Source of the DNA: Candidatus Latescibacterota bacterium
Lineage (GTDB): Bacteria > Hydrothermota > Tepidihabitantia > Tepidihabitantales > CAIPLT01
NCBI GenBank assembly: GCA_018335915.1
Contig: JAGXRL010000121.1
Coordinates: 1 to 39,438 of the forward strand
Direction: 5' to 3'
DNA length: 39,438 bases
In this document: positions 13,680 through 26,534 of the stretch, piece after piece
How the letters are laid out: every line of letters starts with the position of its first letter
How positions within the stretch are numbered: position 1 is the stretch's first letter
Program-made: the position numbers and the translations under genes
Notes under the pieces: generated by a model
The model's database searches: none
What the model was told of the DNA's origin: nothing
What the model saw: only the letters and a program-made list of their open reading frames with translations

Positions 13680-14192
13680 ATGTGCGTACTTGATTGGATA
13701 TTAATAATAATTGCTGCTGGCATCATAGTAATGCAAACTTTCCGGAGCGGTGAAGACCTTCATTATGTCTTTTTTGAGATGATTGGAATATTGGTAGCTG
13801 CTAATTTATCTCTCCGATATTATGCCAGACTTGCCGAAAAGACAGGTGTTAATCCAGCAATCACGCTATTGCTGATTTTTATCATTTTCGGCATTATCTT
13901 GTGGATTATTGCTGATTTAGTTGCTAATAAAGTGCAATTCACTTTAGCCCCAATCGATACCTGGCTCGGTTTTATTATCGGTTTTATTTCAGCCTGGGCG
14001 ATTTTATATGTTGTGCTTAAGGTTTTGTTTATTGTCTATCCTGATGGACTGAGCTTAAATCTGTTTAGCTCGAGCAAGCCAACAGTTATTTTTTCATCGC
14101 TTGACAATTCACCGGTTGCCAAAGAAATTCTCAATTTCAATTCGTTTAGGGCAGTAACTAATTTATTGAACAAGGTGAAACTGAGCGAATGA
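13680..14192 (+). CDS. CvpA-like small integral membrane protein
   Basis: A 170-residue protein with four hydrophobic segments at about residues 4-20, 28-47, 62-85 and 98-122, and a polar C-terminal tail of about 45 residues. The pattern of LDWILIIIAAG at the start, a conserved central helix and GFIIGFISAWAILYVVLK resembles the CvpA/colicin V production family, but the match is by layout rather than a signature. It starts 5 nt after the patatin gene and its stop overlaps the cobO start (ATGA), so it is in the same operon. Its role is not known. Confidence 0.55.
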   Translation: MCVLDWILIIIAAGIIVMQTFRSGEDLHYVFFEMIGILVAANLSLRYYARLAEKTGVNPAITLLLIFIIFGIILWIIADLVANKVQFTLAPIDTWLGFIIGFISAWAILYVVLKVLFIVYPDGLSLNLFSSSKPTVIFSSLDNSPVAKEILNFNSFRAVTNLLNKVKLSE

Positions 14193-14698
14193 TACATATT
14201 TATACTGGTAATGGCAAAGGTAAAACAACCTCGGCAATTGGTCAGGCAGTCCGCGCTTTGGGACACAAATATAAAGTTATAATGATACAGTTTATGAAAG
14301 GCGACCCGAATTATGGTGAAATAAAAACTTTGAAAAAGATACGAAATATCAAAGTAGTCCAGTCTGGCTTGCCGACTTTTGTCGAGAAGGGAAAACCAAG
14401 CAAAGAAGATTTGAAATTAGCCGCAAAAGGATTTGCTCTGGCTAAAAAAGCATTAAAAGAAAAAAAGTATCAGATGGTGATTTTAGACGAGATAAATGTC
14501 GCGGTTGATTATGGACTGTTACAATTAGCTGATGTCATAAAACTTGCCGAAAACTGTCCCAAAAATATTGAACTGATTTTAACCGGGCGGTATGCCTCAA
14601 AAGAATTAATTGATATCGCAGATTTAGTCAGTGAAATCAAAGAGATTAAACATCCCTATCAAAAAGGATTTGTCTCAAGAAAAGGCATAGACTATTAA
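14189..14698 (+). CDS. cobO: Cob(I)alamin adenosyltransferase, CobO/BtuR type
   Basis: Transfers the adenosyl group of ATP to cob(I)alamin, giving the adenosylcobalamin used by the mutase encoded downstream. The 169 residues carry the P-loop YTGNGKGKTTSAIGQAVRA at the very N-terminus, then IQFMKGD, the Walker B-like MVILDEINVAVDYGLL and ILTGRYA, all typical of the CobA/CobO/BtuR fold. It overlaps the CvpA-like gene by 4 nt and precedes meaB, so cofactor supply and mutase are co-transcribed. No other cobalamin biosynthesis gene is in the window, which suggests corrinoid salvage or genes elsewhere. Confidence 0.92.
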   Translation: MIHIYTGNGKGKTTSAIGQAVRALGHKYKVIMIQFMKGDPNYGEIKTLKKIRNIKVVQSGLPTFVEKGKPSKEDLKLAAKGFALAKKALKEKKYQMVILDEINVAVDYGLLQLADVIKLAENCPKNIELILTGRYASKELIDIADLVSEIKEIKHPYQKGFVSRKGIDY

Positions 14699-14732
14699 AA
14701 ACTCAAAACTCATAACTCAAAACGCAAAACTT
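14699..14732. repeat. Half repeat 'aaaactcaaaactcataactc' at the meaB start
   Basis: A run of near-direct AACTCAAAAC/AACTCATAAC units lies between the cobO stop and the conserved N-terminus of MeaB. A related minus-strand phrase is at about 21366-21400. It occupies the place where the meaB start codon and ribosome site would be expected. Confidence 0.55.
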
Positions 14733-14765
14733 CTGAATGCTTTTCTTAAAGGCGACCAGCGTGCT

Positions 14766-15671
14766 TTGAGCCAGTTGATGACTCTGATTGAGAACAATGA
14801 CCATAAGGCAAAATCGATTTTAAATACGCTCTATCCGAGAACCGGCAATGCCTGGCGTATTGGCATTACCGGACCTCCAGGCGCAGGAAAATCAACGCTA
14901 GTTGAAAAACTGGCTATGGAATGTGTGAAGCATAATCTGAGCGTGGGTATTGTCTGTATTGACCCGACTTCGCCATTCAGCGGCGGTGCAATACTTGGTG
15001 ATAGGGTGCGTATGTCGTCATTGTTTTTAGACCCGAAAGTATTTATTCGAAGCATGGCAACCCGCGGCAGTCTGGGCGGAATTGCCAAAGCAACCAAGCA
15101 GATGTGCGACCTGCTTGATGCGTTCAAAAAAGATATAATTATTATCGAGACAATTGGTGTCGGACAGGTCGAACTTGATGTCGCTGGTATTGCTTTTACC
15201 ACGATTGTCGTGTTGGTGCCTGAAGCCGGTGATTCGATTCAGACTATGAAAGCAGGCCTGATGGAGATTGCGGATATTTTTGTAGTCAATAAATCAGACC
15301 GGGACGGCGCGGACAAGATGGTTATGGAAATCCAGTCAATCTTAGAAATGAAGGATTTTGACCGAATACCAGTCGTGCTTAAGACGATTGGTACAGAAGG
15401 CAAAGGTGTGACCGATTTGTATAAGAGCATATTGGAACACAAAGATTATCTCAAAGTTACAAACAAGATTAAACAACGGATGCAGTCAACAATCCAGACT
15501 GAAATCACGGAGATTGTGCAGGAGCATATTGATAAGCAAGTCTGGCGCAATCCGAAAATTAAACTTGCATTAAACCGATTTATTGATAATATTATTAATG
15601 GCAGACAAACTCCTTATCATGCCGCGGATAAAATTTATGCAATCTGGAAAAAATTAGGGAGGAAGATTTGA
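14766..15671 (+). CDS. meaB: MeaB/ArgK-type G3E GTPase, chaperone of the B12 mutase
   Basis: GTPase that gates transfer of adenosylcobalamin to acyl-CoA mutases and protects them from inactivation. Motifs: P-loop GITGPPGAGKSTLVEKL, VGIVCIDPTSPFSGGAILGD, RGSLGGIA, the switch/Walker B region IIIETIGVGQVELDVA, and NKSDRDGADKM for guanine recognition. Length 301 from the TTG at 14766. The conserved N-terminus appears to begin further upstream: codons from 14733 read LLNAFLKGDQRAL, the usual family start, but no ATG, GTG or TTG lies there in frame. CTG at 14733, ATA at 14712 or ATT at 14694 are the only candidates, and a TAG at 14688 closes the frame. The last codons overlap the mutase gene by 4 nt. 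Confidence 0.9.
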   Translation: MSQLMTLIENNDHKAKSILNTLYPRTGNAWRIGITGPPGAGKSTLVEKLAMECVKHNLSVGIVCIDPTSPFSGGAILGDRVRMSSLFLDPKVFIRSMATRGSLGGIAKATKQMCDLLDAFKKDIIIIETIGVGQVELDVAGIAFTTIVVLVPEAGDSIQTMKAGLMEIADIFVVNKSDRDGADKMVMEIQSILEMKDFDRIPVVLKTIGTEGKGVTDLYKSILEHKDYLKVTNKIKQRMQSTIQTEITEIVQEHIDKQVWRNPKIKLALNRFIDNIINGRQTPYHAADKIYAIWKKLGRKI

Positions 15672-17284
15672 AGCAGAAAATAAACAAGGAAAATAATCGC
15701 ATTAATGACGCAACCATTTCCGGCATACCGGTCAAGATTATCTATGTGCCAGATGATATCAAGGATTTAAATTATGACCGTGACCTGGGTATGCCTGGTC
15801 AATATCCATATACCCGTGGAGTCAGACAAACCATGTATCGGGGCAGGTTATGGACTATGCGCCAGTTTTCCGGTTTTGGCACAGCAAAAGATACGAACAA
15901 GCGATACAAATTCTTGTTGGCTCATGGCGAGACCGGTTTATCAGTTGCATTTGATTTTCCAACCTTGTATGGAAGAGATTCTGACGAAGAAATCAGTGCC
16001 GGTGAAGTCGGTAAATGCGGAGTCGCAATTTCATCCTTGGCAGATATGGAGACTTTGTTTGACGGTATTCCCATGGCTGAGGTTTCGACTTCAATGACTA
16101 TTAATGGTCCGGCATCAGTAATCTGGGCGTTTTATATTGCCGCGGCAGAAAAACAAGGCGTTAAGTCAAAACAGTTACGGGGTACGATTCAGAACGATAT
16201 TTTAAAAGAATATATTGCCCAGAAATCATGGTTGTTTCCACCGAAGCCGTCCATGCGCATAATTACGGATATTATGGAATTCGCTGCCCAACACGTACCG
16301 CAATGGAATACGATTTCAATCAGCGGTTATCATATCCGGGAAGCCGGTTCAACAGCGGTACAGGAATTGGCATTTACTTTAAAAGACGGATTGACTTATG
16401 TTGAAGAGGGAATAAAAGCTGGACTGGATGTAGATGTATTTGCGCCAAGACTGTCTTATTTTTTTAATTCGCATCTCGACTTTTTCGAAGAAATTGCCAA
16501 ATACCGTGCTGCGCGCAGAATATGGGCACGGGAAATGAAAAATACTTATAAAGCAAAAAAGCCCGAATCATTATTATTAAGATTCCATACCCAGACTGCC
16601 GGCTGCACTCTAACTGCCCAGCAGCCGGAAAATAATATTGTGAGAACCGCATTTCAAGGGCTGGCTGCAGTTTTAGGAGGAACCCAGAGTTTACATACCA
16701 ATTCAATGGACGAGACATGGGCATTGCCAACTGAAAAAGCAGTCTTGATTGCCCTGCGCACCCAGCAATTAATTGCTTATGAAACTGGCGTGGCTAATGT
16801 GATTGACCCGTTGGGCGGCTCGTATTATGTCGAGTCCTTGACCAATAAGATGGAGCAGGAAGCATATAACTATTTTAAAAAGATTGATAAGATGGGCGGC
16901 ATGATTAAAGCGATTGAGAACGGCTATCCGCAAAGAGAGATTGCCAATGCTGCTTACAATTATCAGAAGCAGGTTGAACAGAAAAAACGGACTTTTGTCG
17001 GAGTCAATGATTTTATTTTAGCCGACGAAAAACTGGAAATGCCGATTTTAAAGATTGACCACCGGGTTAGCGAAGAACAGAACAAGCGAATACAGACCTT
17101 GCGCAAAAAGCGGAACAATGCCCAGGTCGCAAAAGTATTAAAAGAGCTGAAACGGGTCTGCCAGACCAAAGAGAATGTGATGTATCCGATTCTTAAAGCA
17201 GTCAAAGCTTATGCCACGCTCGGTGAAATCTGTGCGGCAATGAAAGAGATTTTCGGCGTTTATAAAGAACCGCCGATGTTTTAG
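15668..17284 (+). CDS. Coenzyme B12-dependent acyl-CoA mutase, large (TIM-barrel) subunit
   Basis: Catalytic subunit of the methylmalonyl-CoA mutase family, lacking the B12 domain, which is separately encoded downstream. 538 residues. Family motifs seen: YTRGVRQTMYRGRLWTMRQF, GLSVAFDFPT, GTIQNDILKEY, ISISGYHIREAGSTA, FHTQTAGCTLTAQQPENN, GGTQSLHTNSMDE and DPLGGSYYVE. The residues aligned with Tyr89 and Arg207 of the Propionibacterium mutase (Tyr110/Arg228 in human), which bind the substrate carboxylate, are Phe67 and Gln185 here, with identical 118-residue spacing. Phe/Gln is the reported isobutyryl-CoA mutase pair. A 2-hydroxyisobutyryl-CoA mutase is less likely because the residue expected to be Asp is Ala94. 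Annotation as methylmalonyl-CoA mutase would therefore be premature. Start is TTG with GGGAGG 5-7 nt upstream, overlapping meaB. Confidence 0.9.
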   Translation: MKQKINKENNRINDATISGIPVKIIYVPDDIKDLNYDRDLGMPGQYPYTRGVRQTMYRGRLWTMRQFSGFGTAKDTNKRYKFLLAHGETGLSVAFDFPTLYGRDSDEEISAGEVGKCGVAISSLADMETLFDGIPMAEVSTSMTINGPASVIWAFYIAAAEKQGVKSKQLRGTIQNDILKEYIAQKSWLFPPKPSMRIITDIMEFAAQHVPQWNTISISGYHIREAGSTAVQELAFTLKDGLTYVEEGIKAGLDVDVFAPRLSYFFNSHLDFFEEIAKYRAARRIWAREMKNTYKAKKPESLLLRFHTQTAGCTLTAQQPENNIVRTAFQGLAAVLGGTQSLHTNSMDETWALPTEKAVLIALRTQQLIAYETGVANVIDPLGGSYYVESLTNKMEQEAYNYFKKIDKMGGMIKAIENGYPQREIANAAYNYQKQVEQKKRTFVGVNDFILADEKLEMPILKIDHRVSEEQNKRIQTLRKKRNNAQVAKVLKELKRVCQTKENVMYPILKAVKAYATLGEICAAMKEIFGVYKEPPMF

Positions 17285-17287
17285 ATA

Positions 17288-17428
17288 TGAAAATCCGAAA
17301 TCCTAAATCCGAAATCCTAAACAAATTCAAAACTCTAATATCAAAACAGATAAACGTTTTACTAATTTGGATTTTGGTGATTAGATATTGTTTAGAATTT
17401 CGTGCTTCGAATTTAGAATTTTATTTTA
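17288..17428. repeat. Long imperfect palindromic element between the mutase subunits
   Basis: The left half (AAAATCCGAAATCCTAAATC, then CGAAATCCTAAACAAATTC) is an imperfect reverse complement of the right half (GATATTGTTTAGAATTTCG, then TGCTTCGAATTTAGAATTTT). The transcript could fold into a long hairpin between the two mutase genes. The small-subunit ribosome site GGGGGAGTAATG begins just after it. Confidence 0.7.
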
Positions 17429-17437
17429 GGGGGAGTA

Positions 17438-17833
17438 ATGGATAAGAAGTTAAGAATCTTGGTTGCTAAACCAGGCCTGGACGGACATGACCGGGGTGCC
17501 AAAGTCGTGGCACGGGCTTTGCGTGATGCCGGTTTTGAAGTGATTTATACCGGCTTGCATCAAACACCAGACATGATTGTGGCAACCGCAATTCAGGAAG
17601 ATGTCAATGCAGTCGGGTTGTCGATTCTTTCGGGTGCGCATATGACAATCTTTCCCAATGTCATGAAACTATTAAAAAAGAAGAAAGCCGTAGACATTTT
17701 ACTTTTTGGCGGCGGTATTATACCAGATGAAGACAAAAAGGCATTGTATAAACTGGGCGTTGGCAAACTGTTCGGACCAGGCACAGATACCGCTGAAATT
17801 GTTGCCTATCTGAAAAAGTATTTTAAGCTATAA
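17438..17833 (+). CDS. Coenzyme B12-dependent acyl-CoA mutase, small (cobalamin-binding) subunit
   Basis: Cobalamin-binding partner of the large mutase subunit, 131 residues. It shows the base-off/His-on signature DxHxxG in [18 protein letters not shown], the second motif as SILSGAH, and the GG motif in [16 protein letters not shown], ending [10 protein letters not shown]. The split into large and small genes is found in isobutyryl-CoA mutase, 2-hydroxyisobutyryl-CoA mutase and archaeal methylmalonyl-CoA mutase. A strong Shine-Dalgarno site (GGGGGAG) lies 5 nt before the ATG. A 140-bp repeat element separates it from the large subunit. Confidence 0.92.
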
Positions 17834-17843
17834 TGGCGGATTT

Positions 17844-19394
17844 ATGAAAATGGATGATGCGATAAAAAAACTGCACGACTTAAGAGAAAAAGCAAAACTG
17901 GGCGGGGGAGAAGAACGAATTGCAAAACAGCACGAAGCCGGCAAACTGACTGCCCGAGAGCGGATTGGGATTTTAGTTGACAAAGATACTTTTCAGGAAT
18001 TTGACGCTTTTGTTACGCACCGGATTTATGACTTTAATATGCAGGAAAAAAAGATTCTTGGCGATGGTGTTATAACCGGTGTCGGTAAAGTCAATGGCAG
18101 GGATATTGCAATTTTTTCCCAGGATTTCACCTCATTTGGCGGAACTTTGTCAGAAACTTTCGGCTCAAAAGTAATTAAAATCATGGAATTGGCAATGAAA
18201 ATGGGTATTCCAGTGATTGGACTAAATGATTCAGGTGGGGCACGGATACAAGAAGGAGTTGTCAGTTTAGCTTCATATGCAGATATATTCTGGCATAATA
18301 CCCAGGCATCAGGCGTAATTCCTCAGATATCGGCAATTATGGGACCTTGTGCCGGCGGTGCAGTCTATTCACCAGCACTTACTGATTTTGTTTTTATGGT
18401 CAAAGGCACCAGTTATATGTTTATTACCGGACCAGAAGTGGTCAAGACCGTGACCCACGAGCAGGTCAGTTTTGATGATTTGGGCGGTGCCCAGATTCAC
18501 GCTTCAAAATCAGGAGTTGCCCATTTTACCGCAGAAAATGACAAAGAATGTCTTTTAAATATCAGGAAACTTTTATCATACCTGCCCTTGAACAATCTCG
18601 AAGACCCGCCCCGCATCGAATCTGATGATGACCCGAACCGGGAAGACGAAGAACTAAATAAAATCATTCCGGATGAGGAGAACAAGGCATATGTGATGAA
18701 AGATGTGATATTGCATATTGTTGACCATGATTCGTTTTTTGAAGTGCATAAAGACTATGCCCAGAACATAATTGTCGGTTTTGCCCGACTCGACGGTCAG
18801 GTTGTTGGTATTATTGCACAGGAACCGTCAGTTATGGCTGGAGTCCTGGATATTCATTCGTCATTAAAAGGCGGACGGTTTATCCGATTTTGCGATGCGT
18901 TCAATATTCCGATCATTACTTTTGAAGATGTACCCGGCTTCTTACCCGGCACATTACAGGAACACGGCGGAATTATTAAACACGGTGCTAAATTATTATA
19001 TGCCTATTGCGAAGCGAACGTACCGAAAATCACGGTAATCACGAGAAAATCATATGGCGGCGCTTATTGTGTGCTCGGTTCAAAACAGGTACGGGCAGAT
19101 ATTAACCTGGCATGGCCCAGTGCGGAACTGGCAGTTATGGGACCCGAAGGCGCAGTTAATATTATCTATCGCAAAGAAATTAGTGAAGCGAAAGACCCAA
19201 AACAGACCCGCCAGCAATTGATTGACGAATACCGGGAAAAGTTTGCTAATCCTTATGTTGCGGCAAGCCGCGGTTATGTTGATGATATTATCGAACCGAA
19301 AAAGACCAGAAAAGAATTAATCAAATATTTAAAACTATTAGATACCAAACGGGATAAATTACCGCCCAAAAAACACGGTAATATACCGTTATAA
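17844..19394 (+). CDS. Acyl-CoA (propionyl-CoA) carboxylase carboxyltransferase subunit
   Basis: Biotin-dependent carboxyltransferase of the PccB/MmdA family, 516 residues. It moves CO2 between carboxybiotin and an acyl-CoA such as propionyl-CoA. Seen: KLTARERIGILVDKDTFQE, the two crotonase-like halves with IGLNDSGGARIQEGV and GPCAGGAVYSPALTD in the first, and ITFEDVPGFLPGTLQEHGGI, RKSYGGAYCVLGSK and AWPSAELAVMGPEGAV in the second. It starts 10 nt after the mutase small subunit. Biotin carrier, biotin carboxylase and the Na+-pump beta/gamma subunits are not in the window, so carboxylase and methylmalonyl-CoA decarboxylase roles cannot be told apart. No epimerase gene is nearby. Confidence 0.9.
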   Translation: MKMDDAIKKLHDLREKAKLGGGEERIAKQHEAGKLTARERIGILVDKDTFQEFDAFVTHRIYDFNMQEKKILGDGVITGVGKVNGRDIAIFSQDFTSFGGTLSETFGSKVIKIMELAMKMGIPVIGLNDSGGARIQEGVVSLASYADIFWHNTQASGVIPQISAIMGPCAGGAVYSPALTDFVFMVKGTSYMFITGPEVVKTVTHEQVSFDDLGGAQIHASKSGVAHFTAENDKECLLNIRKLLSYLPLNNLEDPPRIESDDDPNREDEELNKIIPDEENKAYVMKDVILHIVDHDSFFEVHKDYAQNIIVGFARLDGQVVGIIAQEPSVMAGVLDIHSSLKGGRFIRFCDAFNIPIITFEDVPGFLPGTLQEHGGIIKHGAKLLYAYCEANVPKITVITRKSYGGAYCVLGSKQVRADINLAWPSAELAVMGPEGAVNIIYRKEISEAKDPKQTRQQLIDEYREKFANPYVAASRGYVDDIIEPKKTRKELIKYLKLLDTKRDKLPPKKHGNIPL

Positions 19395-21845: not shown

Positions 21846-23195
21846 TTAAACAGGTGAAGTCGGTTTGGTTCTGCCCATCCAGTCCAGATTTTCGAGTTCG
21901 CCAAAATGGTCTTTGAAAATGCGGTAATACATCAATTCTTCTTTGCTGTGTAATTTCCAGGCGCAGGGCAGAACAGATTCTTTTCGAAAATCAGCATCCG
22001 ATATATGTTTATCTGCGTATTGGGAGAATAACTCGCCAATACCCGCGCCCTGCCAGAATTTTGCTTTGGTGCGGTTTAAGATTGCATCCGGTAAAAACCC
22101 ATCCAGAGCCCGTCGTAATATCCATTTTTCAATGCCGTTATATAATTTATATTCGGCTGGTATTTGCAAAGCATAATTGATTATTTCCGGGCTGGCAAAA
22201 GGGACATAAGCAGTGAGTCCGAATGCGGATGCGCAACGGTCAACCCGCTGCAGAGCCGTGTTATGCAGACGATTCATTATATCAACCAGCTCATCTGCCA
22301 AAAATAAAGGATTGAAAGTTTTTAAGTATTCATAACCGGCAAAGAGTTCATCACCGGCTTCACCAGAAAATACTTGACTAACATATTGAGAAGCTCTTTT
22401 TGCGGCTAAATAATTGGTAATGCTGGAGCGCACCAGCAGAGCGTCAAATGATTCAAGACTGTAAACAACATCAGGCAGGGTTTTGAGCATATCTTTGAAA
22501 CCGACGATTATTTCGTGGTGGTGTAGTTTTTGATCCGGCTTTGCTCTGGTTTTGATATAATCGGCAGCAATCCGGGCAAATTTAATGTCTGGCGCGTCTT
22601 TTAACCCGGCGGCAAAAGTATGCATGGTTTTGACATATTTACTTGCCAGACTGACAATCGCGCTCGAATCGAGCCCGCCCGAAAGCCAGGCACCGGTCTC
22701 ATTTTCAGAAATTTTGTTTTGGATTTCATTGCATAAAATCATTCTTAATTCTTGAGCAATGGTTTCAGGCAATTGAATAAAACCGGGTTGTTTTTGATAA
22801 GACTCTTTTTGAACAAACTGATTGTCCTGGTAAATATAACCGGGTAAGAACTCATTAATATCCTGCGCTAAATCCAGTAATGCTTTGACTTCTGAAGCAA
22901 AACAGACCGTATGGTCACGGGTTTTTCCATAATACAATGGCACAATTCCTAACAGGTCGCGCCTAAGCACTAATTTGTTTTCTTGAATCAAAGCCGGCTG
23001 CAATTTATCATTATAATCCGATGCCGTAGTTTTTAGGATATGAGACTGGAGATTGGAAAAGACAATCCCGATTGTCGCATTTCGGGTCTGAAACAGCTCT
23101 TTACCAAATTCACCGCGATGTTTAATTTTCTTTAACATCTGCTGTACAAGTTCGACCTGATTCAAACTAAAAACACCGGCAATTCCATATGACAT
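21846..23195 (-). CDS. Asparagine-synthetase-like amide synthetase lacking the N-terminal glutaminase cysteine
   Basis: Homologue of class B asparagine synthetase, 449 residues (AsnB has about 550). The C-terminal AMP-forming domain is intact in its key parts: the PP-loop WLSGGLDSSAIVSLASKY at about residues 168-185, then SGEAGDELFAGYEYL and YVPFASPEIINYALQIP. The N-terminal Ntn domain is shortened and begins MSYGIAGVF where glutamine-dependent enzymes begin MCGIAG, so the nucleophile Cys is missing and one residue is added. The usual NGEIYNY motif is not seen. It probably activates a carboxylate with ATP and uses free ammonia or another amine. The start has a GGAAG site, 2 nt after the preceding gene. 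It is third in the EIIA-opine dehydrogenase operon. The product is unknown. Confidence 0.8.
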   Translation of the reverse strand: MSYGIAGVFSLNQVELVQQMLKKIKHRGEFGKELFQTRNATIGIVFSNLQSHILKTTASDYNDKLQPALIQENKLVLRRDLLGIVPLYYGKTRDHTVCFASEVKALLDLAQDINEFLPGYIYQDNQFVQKESYQKQPGFIQLPETIAQELRMILCNEIQNKISENETGAWLSGGLDSSAIVSLASKYVKTMHTFAAGLKDAPDIKFARIAADYIKTRAKPDQKLHHHEIIVGFKDMLKTLPDVVYSLESFDALLVRSSITNYLAAKRASQYVSQVFSGEAGDELFAGYEYLKTFNPLFLADELVDIMNRLHNTALQRVDRCASAFGLTAYVPFASPEIINYALQIPAEYKLYNGIEKWILRRALDGFLPDAILNRTKAKFWQGAGIGELFSQYADKHISDADFRKESVLPCAWKLHSKEELMYYRIFKDHFGELENLDWMGRTKPTSPV

Positions 23196-23197
23196 CG

Positions 23198-24835
23198 CTA
23201 TCTTCCTTTCTTGACTAACGATTTTAAACGCTGGGCTTCGGTCATGGGTTTACCAGTTTGAGGATTAATGACCAGATACTGACCATTGACTGGCGCGGTG
23301 ATGATTTTACCCTGCGCGACATTTGAACCGACCAGGTGCGGTGCATCAAGAATACCATTTCTGACTGCCTGATATAAAACTTCAGGGTCGGTCAGCGGGT
23401 CAGTCGGTTTTCGACTTAATCTTTTAATCGCATTGATAATAAGATTGGCTTGTTTTATCAATTCGCTTTTTCGTTTTTGAATTGCCGGGTCATATGTAAT
23501 ATCTGGCAGATTTTTCAATGCTAAGCGGATTACGCCGTGGGTGATTTGGGCACTCTCAATGATTTCCTGGGCAGTAGCGTTGTAATTGGCTTCGCAATAA
23601 CCGACCACATGCATGATCTGCGGTTTGAGCATCATACTGATTAAGACTGATGCAGAGAGATGACCTTTAGCAATATCAGGGTCGGTTGGCATACTGCGCA
23701 AGCCAGTCCGGACTTCGCGGAAAGAAGTAAATTTTTGGTCGTGCAGAGATTCAATCAGCTCGATTTTGGCAAGCATTTTTGCCAAATCCATTTGCGGGCT
23801 GGTCTCAGGCGGAGTATTAAACATATACTGGGAAACATAATGCCTGACCCCAAGTTTTTTTGCATTGTAGGCAGCCAGATAAGCAGTCGCTACTGCCAAG
23901 GCATCATGACTGTCGCGCAGACTCCATTGATGAGAATCATTTACTTCAACTGGTATTTTATGTTTGGCATACCAGCGTATAGTTGCCTGATTTTCTTTTA
24001 TCGATTCAAGCAGGTCACGGGTTGAGCGTTTGTCTAATTCGTTATACCAGAACAAAGGAATCGCACCCCATGCAATATTGATAGTCTTGACCGACATTTT
24101 TGACCAGTCGAGTAAATGGTCAGTGCCCGCATAACAGCGGACTAATGGATAATTACCGCACCGGGTTGCCTGATAAATTGCTCTTAAATCCGGCGGTTTT
24201 CTTAAGGGCACACCGCCAGCGCCATGACCGGTTTTGGGCATGTGCTTTGGTTTAAAAAAGAATTCCTGCGCGTTCTGGTCTGGCGCAATACTGATAATAT
24301 CCAAGACCCGAGCCAGAGCAATTTTTCGGGCATCAATTATGGTTTGCCTAACTGTTTTCAAGCCAAGATGATGCCGTAATAGGGGATAGGGATAGTTTTG
24401 TCTAATCCGTTCCACCAATGTCTGGGCATAATGCTTTTGAGTCTGTTTGCCGGATTTTTTCTGGAGATAATTAATAATGGTTTGGATTGGTTCGGCACCA
24501 GAAAAGACCGCTTCAAACAGCTTGTTCTCTCGTGCGACTTTTGCTACTGAAGTCGTACCGCCAAACGCAAGCCGGGTTTTTTCAAGATTGTGTTTTTTCA
24601 GTTCATTTTTCAATTCATTAAAAAGAGTTTGTGCAGTTTCCGGAGTCAAACGGTAAGAGACTACTGCCAAATCTGGTTTGCTATTTTTTATGGCATTAAC
24701 AAAGTTCTTAACACTAATTGCCGAGCCGAGAAATTCGGTTTCATAGCCATAATTTTGTGCCAGGCGTAAAAAGTTGATAATACCGGCAACATGCACGCAA
24801 TTGCCAATACAGGCACCTAAGATTTTATTTGCCAT
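23198..24835 (-). CDS. Protein with cobalamin-binding-like N-domain and mutase/TIM-barrel-like C-domain
   Basis: A 545-residue protein from the preferred ATG at 24833-24835, which has an AAGG site and begins MANKILGACIGNCVHVAGI. Residues 1-125 resemble the B12-binding fold of glutamate mutase/MetH: HxxxG in CVHVAG (the canonical DxHxxG has Cys in place of Asp), SYRL in place of SxL, and FGGT as the GG motif. Residues about 190-480 look like a TIM-barrel enzyme, with RCYAGTDHLLDWSKM, EVNDSHQWSLRDSHDALAVA and VVGYCEANYNATAQEIIESA. This arrangement recalls a GlmS-GlmE style mutase fusion, but I cannot assign a substrate, and B12 binding is unproven. An upstream ATG (24856) would overlap the previous gene by 32 nt instead of 11. 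The tail (about 495-545) is a short extra domain. Confidence 0.6.
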   Translation of the reverse strand: MANKILGACIGNCVHVAGIINFLRLAQNYGYETEFLGSAISVKNFVNAIKNSKPDLAVVSYRLTPETAQTLFNELKNELKKHNLEKTRLAFGGTTSVAKVARENKLFEAVFSGAEPIQTIINYLQKKSGKQTQKHYAQTLVERIRQNYPYPLLRHHLGLKTVRQTIIDARKIALARVLDIISIAPDQNAQEFFFKPKHMPKTGHGAGGVPLRKPPDLRAIYQATRCGNYPLVRCYAGTDHLLDWSKMSVKTINIAWGAIPLFWYNELDKRSTRDLLESIKENQATIRWYAKHKIPVEVNDSHQWSLRDSHDALAVATAYLAAYNAKKLGVRHYVSQYMFNTPPETSPQMDLAKMLAKIELIESLHDQKFTSFREVRTGLRSMPTDPDIAKGHLSASVLISMMLKPQIMHVVGYCEANYNATAQEIIESAQITHGVIRLALKNLPDITYDPAIQKRKSELIKQANLIINAIKRLSRKPTDPLTDPEVLYQAVRNGILDAPHLVGSNVAQGKIITAPVNGQYLVINPQTGKPMTEAQRLKSLVKKGR

Positions 24836-26402
24836 TGCGCCTACCTTCTTCGACATAACGCCGAATCTGACGAACCGTCATACCATCCAAGCCGAGCTTG
24901 TCAACGGTTCTGCCTTCTGTCCAGTAATTGCGGTTATGTAAAACATTGGCAAGCTGAACAATCGATTTCATTGTCGTCACTTTGACGCCCAGATATTCCC
25001 CAAGTGAGGCAATGGGAACTAAGCTGGTCGGCACATCTTCAGCAATATAGCGGTGGTCAATAGTATTTGGCGCCATAATGCCATGGTATCCGTAATTTGC
25101 CTGAATCGCTTCATACAGGTTATTACCAGCAACGCCATATGCCTGATACAGCCATTCCCGGGCAGAAAGAACACGAATACCAACTGCTTCTGCAACTTTA
25201 ATCCGTTCTGCATCCAGAGCTTCTAATACTAAAGAGACTGACGGGCTGGCACCTTCGTGATAATAACTGAATTCGCCTTTTTCATTTTCAATCCAGGCGG
25301 TATTGAGCACGGTCAGAGCCGGATGAAAAATCGCGCCGATATTGCTCAAGCCGGTCTTTAGCACATTGTCACCGGCAACAAACTGGTGAAAAGTATTTCT
25401 GAGCGATGCCAGGACATCAGGCAGATGAAATGCGGGCAGAGTAGCTATAGGCACGGCATTTTTAATGCCAAAAATCCGCACCTGTCCGGGATTGGTGATG
25501 CGTGACGCATAGAGCAAAGTTTCCGCTTCAGCTAGAAAATAATATTTATTGATTTTTAACTGGCGCAGGGTTTCGGCAAAGACCAGAGCACCGCCAGTTC
25601 GACCCGGGTTTAACAAGACAATCTGTCCGTCAGATAAGTGCGGACCCATAATACGCGCTATTTCGATATGACCTAAAGCCGGCACCACGACCATGACAAT
25701 ATCAGCATCGGTTAACGCCTGCTTGATATCAGTAGTAACTAGATTCAATTTAGCAGTACCGTTAATTTCACCGGTAACTTCAATTTCATTGCTGGCTTGG
25801 ATTGTCCGAATCCGGTTTTCGGTTCGGTTGTACAGGTTGACTTTACGGCCGGTAATTGCGAGATGCGCAGCCATTGCCAGACCGCCATTGCCCGCACCAA
25901 TAATACAGACGGTCTGGGTATCTTCAGGCGGTTCGATTTCACCAAGCGGAGTTTCTTGTTCTTTGATATAATTAAGCATATCATACGAAGACTTTGCCTG
26001 CAGCAGGGTCTCGGCAAAAATCGGAGCATTTAAAAGATGGGCAAGACGGCTTAATATTTTTAACTGAAAATTGTGTCCGATTAAACGGTTTAAGACCAGA
26101 AATACTAAATTGACTGGTTTGTCGTCAACTGCATTAAAATCGATGCCGGTTTTACTGATACCAATCGCAATGATTGGCTGGTGCACGGCGCTGGTGCAGG
26201 CATGGGGAATCGCAATCGCCTGACCAATCCCAAAAGTGCCTTTGCGTTCGGTTGTCTGTAAATCTTTGACTGCTTGTTCTGGATTACTCAGGCGTCCGGC
26301 ATTTTTTAAGGCATCGGTTAATTCTTGATAAACTTCATGTTTTGTAGTATTTTTTAAATCTAAAATAATTGCTTTATCGACAATAAATTTGTGGATATAC
26401 AT
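24825..26402 (-). CDS. Fusion of PTS EIIA (fructose/Ntr type) with NAD(P) opine dehydrogenase
   Basis: A 525-residue two-domain protein. Residues 1-150 are a PTS EIIA type 2 domain with the phosphorylatable His67 in AIAIPHACTSAV, preceded by ERKGTFGIG. Residues 163-525 form an octopine/nopaline dehydrogenase: Rossmann motif CIIGAGNGGLAMAAHLA (GAGNGG at 169-174), VVVPALGHIEIA, LLNPGRTGGALVF, and the catalytic-histidine region LSNIGAIFHPALTVLN in the all-helical domain. Opine dehydrogenases join an amino acid to a 2-oxoacid by reductive amination. The EIIA domain may make activity depend on PTS phosphorylation or may be a sensor. It is first gene of a three-gene operon. Start chosen at ATG 26402, with AGGTGAT 5-6 nt upstream and a clear promoter about 100 nt upstream. 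The fusion order is unusual. Confidence 0.85.
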   Translation of the reverse strand: MYIHKFIVDKAIILDLKNTTKHEVYQELTDALKNAGRLSNPEQAVKDLQTTERKGTFGIGQAIAIPHACTSAVHQPIIAIGISKTGIDFNAVDDKPVNLVFLVLNRLIGHNFQLKILSRLAHLLNAPIFAETLLQAKSSYDMLNYIKEQETPLGEIEPPEDTQTVCIIGAGNGGLAMAAHLAITGRKVNLYNRTENRIRTIQASNEIEVTGEINGTAKLNLVTTDIKQALTDADIVMVVVPALGHIEIARIMGPHLSDGQIVLLNPGRTGGALVFAETLRQLKINKYYFLAEAETLLYASRITNPGQVRIFGIKNAVPIATLPAFHLPDVLASLRNTFHQFVAGDNVLKTGLSNIGAIFHPALTVLNTAWIENEKGEFSYYHEGASPSVSLVLEALDAERIKVAEAVGIRVLSAREWLYQAYGVAGNNLYEAIQANYGYHGIMAPNTIDHRYIAEDVPTSLVPIASLGEYLGVKVTTMKSIVQLANVLHNRNYWTEGRTVDKLGLDGMTVRQIRRYVEEGRRNGK

Positions 26403-26505: not shown

Positions 26506-26534
26506 AGTATAACCGATGTTATCGGTTCAGTCAA
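26506..26534 (-). promoter_or_regulatory. Promoter of the EIIA-opine dehydrogenase operon
   Basis: Minus strand: TTGACT (26529-26534), exactly 17 bp, TATACT (26506-26511). Transcription should start near 26499, leaving a leader of about 97 nt with a proper Shine-Dalgarno site. This differs from the near-leaderless genes nearby. The spacer is almost wholly occupied by a palindrome. Confidence 0.75.
26511..26527. promoter_or_regulatory. Operator-like palindrome in the promoter spacer
   Basis: AACCGAT (26511-26517), GTT, ATCGGTT (26521-26527): perfect 7-bp arms. It sits between the -35 and -10 boxes, where a bound dimer would block RNA polymerase. No regulator gene is adjacent, so the repressor must be encoded elsewhere. 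Confidence 0.65.

Follow-up and report, generated by a model that had tools for sequence, protein, structure and literature searches.

Three genes lie close together on the minus strand of the window, i.e. the whole stretch of 39,438 nucleotides that was analysed. The first one (24825..26402) encodes a fusion of an EIIA domain and an opine dehydrogenase (ODH), 525 aa in length (PF00359 4.5e-28, PF02317 1.4e-47). It is followed by the gene for a one-chain B12 protein of 552 aa (23198..24856; PF02310 4.7e-08), whose likely start at 24835 would leave 545 aa, and by the gene for a 449-aa protein related to asparagine synthetase B (AsnB-like; 21846..23195; PF00733 2.4e-54), which has an intact synthetase site and no N-terminal Cys. 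A sequence-only reading had already placed three reading frames here and described them as tightly packed. Both observations hold. Counted from its first ATG (24856), the B12 gene overlaps the EIIA-ODH gene by 32 nt, and from its second ATG (24835) by 11 nt. Because the second ATG has a good ribosome site (AAGAAGG) and coincides with the starts of homologues, the 11-nt overlap is the better reading. The gap between the B12 gene and the AsnB-like gene is 2 nt.

A sigma-70-like promoter candidate is found about 100 nt upstream of the operon (TTGACT-17-TATACT, 26506..26534, minus strand), as a match to the consensus only. The same reading spoke of one strong promoter. The candidate is indeed there, but promoter-like matches across the whole region (16, versus 12.2 +/- 3.2 expected by chance) are not in excess, and a single strong promoter is thus plausible but unproven. 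The spacer between the -35-like and -10-like hexamers is filled by a perfect inverted repeat, ACCGAT-AAC-ATCGGT (26512-26526), an arrangement that a repressor site might have. We do not regard it as a conserved operator, since it was not found at the loci of other carriers. A search for plasmid carriage of the operon gave no match.

Not far from the operon, at 14189-19394, the window harbors a propionate/methylmalonyl cluster composed of CobA/CobO, MeaB, the large and small subunits of methylmalonyl-CoA mutase and a carboxyl transferase. Coenzyme B12 is therefore in use. The ATP:corrinoid adenosyltransferase CobA/CobO (14189..14698, plus strand; PF02572 1.4e-62), although outside the operon, could supply adenosylcobalamin.

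Enzyme families and their catalytic residues

The EIIA domain occupies residues ~1-150 of the fusion, matches 2a0j (E 8e-11) and has its phosphorylatable His in the motif AIPHAC. The ODH part (residues ~162-518; PF01210 and PF02317) is closest to N-(1-D-carboxylethyl)-L-norvaline dehydrogenase 1bg6, which it matches over the full length (E 2.7e-77). The His-Asp pair of 1bg6 is retained as H360/D456, presumably the catalytic pair, and reductive condensation of an amino acid with a 2-oxoacid is the predicted activity. What sets this ODH apart from 1bg6 and octopine dehydrogenase is the fused fructose/Ntr-type EIIA. The fusion occurs in four aligned loci only (the window, G145, L025 and L049), and the His of the PHA motif is retained in all of them. 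HPr is encoded in the window's own genome, and 15 of the 17 carriers tested also have it. The control by the phosphotransferase system (PTS) proposed in the sequence-only reading thus has both its His and its phosphate donor, but it would be a lineage feature rather than a general one, because so few loci have the fusion.

In the B12 protein, the N-terminal B12-binding domain (PF02310) is followed by ~430 residues without a Pfam name. The sequence profile of this barrel gave no significant match against PDB, so that a fold search was needed. With an AlphaFold model derived from 13 relatives (mean pLDDT 88.7), Foldseek found glutamate mutase GlmE as the best PDB match (E 1.5e-16), followed by ornithine and lysine aminomutases and methylmalonyl-CoA mutase, and the N-terminal domain matches the fold of GlmS (TM 0.76). 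In hhalign, the protein gives a distant match at full length (489 columns, E 2.6e-8) to a classical Planctomycete GlmS-GlmE fusion, which in turn aligns full length with C. cochlearium GlmE. Judged by its predicted structure, the B12 protein is related to glutamate mutase, from which it has diverged deeply, and joins a B12 domain of the GlmS type to a TIM barrel of the GlmE type. Its earlier description as mutase-like is borne out. Unlike glutamate mutase, which consists of GlmS and GlmE and is served by the reactivase MutL/GlmL, the new mutase is a single chain with the B12 domain first, and its genomic partners are ODH and the AsnB-like gene. It stays below the Pfam cut-off of PF06368 (GlmE/MutE): the window's protein has no match to this profile, and just 2 of 13 members have one (best E 0.0019). 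No PF06368 protein was found in the window's own genome either. Classical GlmE occurs in only one of 40 trio-related genomes. A genome of Planctomycetota (L138 in G180) carries a classical one-chain GlmS-GlmE glutamate mutase as well as the new trio.

The Arg66/Arg100/Arg149 claw of GlmE and its Glu171, which we take to be the glutamate-binding residues, map to His163, Gln197, Tyr242 and Trp263 in a distant alignment via the Planctomycete fusion. All four are invariant in the new family. Because the claw and Glu171 are replaced, the substrate is probably other than glutamate, as far as so distant an alignment can tell. Arg161 and Arg240 sit two residues upstream of mapped claw positions, and a shifted claw is possible. 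Within the B12 motif, His22 and Gly25 are invariant in 13 sequences, and DxHxxG reads CxHxxG (Asp to Cys) in the subtype of the window. The mutase tree splits into two types (23 and 11 rows) with support 100/100.

Ornithine and lysine aminomutases use a conserved Lys of the B12 domain to form a Schiff base with PLP. Residues 1-130 of our alignment contain no invariant Lys, and for this reason we rejected an identity as PLP aminomutase. The sequence-only reading had noted that B12 mutases rearrange carbon skeletons or amino groups, and the enzyme can now be described more closely as one of the glutamate mutase kind.

MutL is the reactivation chaperone of glutamate mutase (PMC4682846). In Anaerolineales (L148:449-4174, minus strand), the new mutase and MutL are fused in one frame of 1241 aa, whose start is preceded and overlapped by an ODH-like frame. 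A Bathyarchaeon carries MutL immediately adjacent to the mutase. Further, the EIIA-ODH and B12 genes of G145 are followed by a cobalamin adenosyltransferase gene (CobA, L017:1839-2348) that adjoins the mutase. Such links support genuine coenzyme-B12 chemistry. We count only fusion and adjacency here, since MutL is present in 137 of 147 genomes of the window's phylum and its occurrence in the window's own genome carries little weight.

The AsnB-like protein starts with MSYGIAG and indeed lacks the glutaminase Cys, as claimed before. E. coli AsnB (1ct9) is its best match in both fold and sequence (TM 0.83), with beta-lactam synthetase and carbapenam synthetase as the next fold matches. The P-loop SGGLDSS, the motif GE.GDE and the catalytic Lys are retained, whereas the N-terminal domain is shortened and, throughout the family, hydrophobic residues (Leu-Leu, Trp-Leu or Pro-Leu) stand in place of the AsnB Thr-Thr pair. 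S172, G173, G174, D176, S177, E279, D282, E283 and K377 are invariant in 18 sequences, and the equivalents of AsnB Lys449 and Glu348 (here E279) are kept. Nearly all relatives have Ala, Ser or some other residue at the N-terminal position, with Cys found only in L070 and in a paralogue from Armatimonadetes (L120:9033-10535, minus strand). The latter, which begins with MCGIAG and belongs to the same wider family, is encoded immediately upstream of ODH and mutase, and the Cys-less copy of that genome sits on another contig (L054). This Cys-containing neighbour suggests that the step in question would be an amidation, with glutamine or free ammonia as donor.

One could also imagine that the AsnB-like enzyme catalyses lactam closure, or amide formation inside a larger natural product, in the way beta-lactam synthetase acts on N2-(2-carboxyethyl)arginine. 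The trio would then yield a bioactive compound or a metallophore. The N-carboxyalkyl amino acids made by ODH are chemically near carboxyethylarginine, the two synthetases stand next in the fold search and the N-terminal Cys is missing. However, lactam closure as in beta-lactam and carbapenam synthetases would be expected to go with replacement of the Glu of the GEGxDE motif, and here E279, the counterpart of the Glu that handles ammonia in AsnB, is invariant, which speaks against it. The glutamine-type AsnB beside ODH and mutase in L120 points to ammonia transfer rather than lactam closure. With no NRPS/PKS, exporter or siderophore genes among annotated neighbours either, we consider this explanation quite improbable. 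The AsnB-like enzyme looks like an amide synthetase that uses ammonia.

In the simplest case, it would be the plain ammonia-dependent asparagine synthetase of its hosts, linked to ODH and mutase only incidentally. AsnB is its nearest homologue with a solved structure, no other AsnB was found in the window's own genome, and in several genomes the gene occurs alone. Yet it was detected (E<=1e-40) in only 2 of 147 genomes of the phylum, both of them mutase carriers, and is absent at this threshold from the other 145. As the Thr-Thr pair is replaced family-wide and the linkage recurs in many phyla, a mere housekeeping role appears very improbable to us.

Distribution of the trio and its neighbourhoods

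Using a two-sequence alignment of the C-terminal half of the AsnB-like protein as query, the family was found in a scan of one genome per species, which gave more than 50 relatives. A single-sequence scan of genome contigs with the B12 protein gave no match. The mutase was found in 37 genomes from more than a dozen bacterial phyla and two archaeal groups, and in 3 of 147 genomes of the window's phylum. ODH lies within ~2 kb of the mutase in 30 of the 37, and an AsnB-like gene belongs to the same cluster in about 16. The full trio on one contig was recorded in Melioribacter-like bacteria, Planctomycetota, Lentisphaerae, Bacteroidales, Chloroflexi, Aminicenantes, Syntrophaceae and archaea (Hermod) (L020, L022, L024, L025, L026, L032, L036, L041, L042, L049, L052, L058 and the archaeal L035). 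In G018, which belongs to the same order as the window but to another family, ODH, a small membrane protein, the B12 protein and the AsnB-like protein stand in one row. No AsnB-like gene was detected in G145.

Among 32 genomes first reached via the AsnB-like gene, which there lies mostly apart from the other two genes of the trio or at a contig end, the mutase is present in 24, and in most of these ODH directly adjoins it. Set beside the 3 of 147 genomes of the phylum, this is a strong co-occurrence at the level of genomes. The remaining 8 metagenome-assembled genomes, incomplete as such assemblies are, show no mutase. The sequence-only reading had named separation of the three families in relatives as the observation that would speak against a common pathway. 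Separation is seen for the AsnB-like gene, which is often located elsewhere, but not for ODH and mutase, which are nearly always together. Distances between AsnB-like proteins nevertheless correlate across genomes, separate loci included, with those between mutases (Mantel r 0.45, p 0.0006) and between ODHs (Mantel r 0.52, p 0.003), a correlation that partly reflects shared ancestry. Because the trio recurs across phyla, its grouping is far beyond chance. The two mutase types have identical partners, and this speaks for a common pathway and not for one inherited accident. The trio is a conserved unit, as the gene neighbourhoods bear out.

Membrane genes of the MscS type form part of the cluster in G018, L026 and L052, and L117 and L119 have them next to it. 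They suggest a compatible-solute role, and they are limited to a minority of loci. In two unrelated phyla, the gene immediately downstream of the AsnB-like one encodes a MarC-family membrane protein (L032:8597-9229, L073:8488-9096). In L034, L039 and L045 (Bipolaricaulota/Acetothermia-type), AsnB-like genes share a common neighbourhood without detectable mutase and may have another role. In L056, L057 and L075 (Aminicenantes and a few others), AsnB-like genes adjoin those for hydantoinase/oxoprolinase B and A, which are also close by in L029, L033 and L050. TldD/PmbA neighbours occur in some loci.

The hydantoinase A/B, asparaginase, CN-hydrolase and TldD/PmbA neighbours could indicate breakdown, and together with an ATP-grasp ligase neighbour they leave room for a catabolic or other role. 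In a catabolic or fermentative scheme, ODH would oxidise imported opines or regenerate NAD+ as a redox sink in anaerobes, the mutase would open a branched-chain route analogous to methylaspartate fermentation and the AsnB-like enzyme would assimilate the released ammonia. The hosts are mostly uncultured lineages and likely anaerobic. An asparaginase is encoded near the G018 cluster and a CN-hydrolase in L118, L130/L131 have a Na/Ala symporter gene close to the mutase, and hydantoinase A/B genes accompany the AsnB-like gene in Aminicenantes. Moreover, glutamate mutase with MutL is classically catabolic (PMC4682846). On the other hand, an amide synthetase that consumes ATP suits synthesis better, and annotated neighbours include no methylaspartate ammonia-lyase, citramalate lyase or opine transporter. 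We hold this scheme to be unlikely.

The ATP-grasp gene mentioned above is D-Ala-D-Ala-ligase-like and lies upstream of ODH in Atribacteria (L122), with the same family in L126, and a TM protein resembling lysylphosphatidylglycerol synthase adjoins ODH in L116. The product might accordingly be thought of as a precursor for modification of the cell envelope or lipids. As neither association extends beyond a few loci and the archaeal carriers have no murein, we give this idea hardly any chance. The sequence-only reading had listed a solute, a metallophore and a wall precursor as possible products. The solute gains modest support from the neighbourhoods, and the other two little or none.

A possible pathway and its meaning

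Taken together, we tentatively propose, at a little short of an even chance, that the operon serves biosynthesis of an amidated N-carboxyalkylated (opine-type) amino acid via a coenzyme-B12 rearrangement, with a compatible solute as the most likely product. Firstly, the mutase with adenosylcobalamin would rearrange the carbon skeleton of an amino acid or of its N-carboxyalkyl derivative. Secondly, ODH would couple the amino group reductively to a 2-oxoacid with NAD(P)H, by means of its conserved His-Asp pair. Finally, the AsnB-like enzyme would activate one carboxylate with ATP, and free ammonia would amidate it. As an uncharged zwitterion, the resulting amidated opine would be well suited to serve as a compatible solute. 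In some lineages, the phosphorylation state of the PTS might modulate ODH through EIIA.

A precedent for an AsnB-type enzyme that finishes a solute is AsnO, which completes the osmolyte N-acetylglutaminylglutamine amide (NAGGN) and thereby amidates a small compound derived from amino acids (PMC8070244). The AsnO/Ngg pathway differs in that it contains neither ODH nor B12 mutase and that AsnO uses glutamine. No published description or name of a pathway with this trio was found in the open-access literature (subscription papers lay outside the search), in agreement with what had been supposed from the sequence. All three enzymes can be placed in known superfamilies, with the mutase as a new branch, and their combination has no name in that literature. 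The trio probably represents an unrecognised pathway for an unusual amidated amino acid.

To our knowledge, few natural carbon-skeleton mutase reactions dependent on adenosylcobalamin are known. Examples are those of methylmalonyl-, ethylmalonyl-, isobutyryl- and hydroxyisobutyryl-CoA mutases, glutamate mutase and methyleneglutarate mutase. A new family whose substrate site is altered and whose partners are constant would therefore extend this list by a reaction. A wider proposal, which we regard as rather doubtful in its entirety, is that bacteria and archaea have in common a new family of adenosylcobalamin mutases, with two deeply split types (one of them CxHxxG) and a new substrate, which, with ODH and an ammonia-dependent amide synthetase as partners, produces amidated opines of a new class that act as compatible solutes. 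The trio is small enough for expression and testing. Since many uncultured phyla as well as archaea carry it, its product may be a common, so far unseen metabolite of subsurface life.
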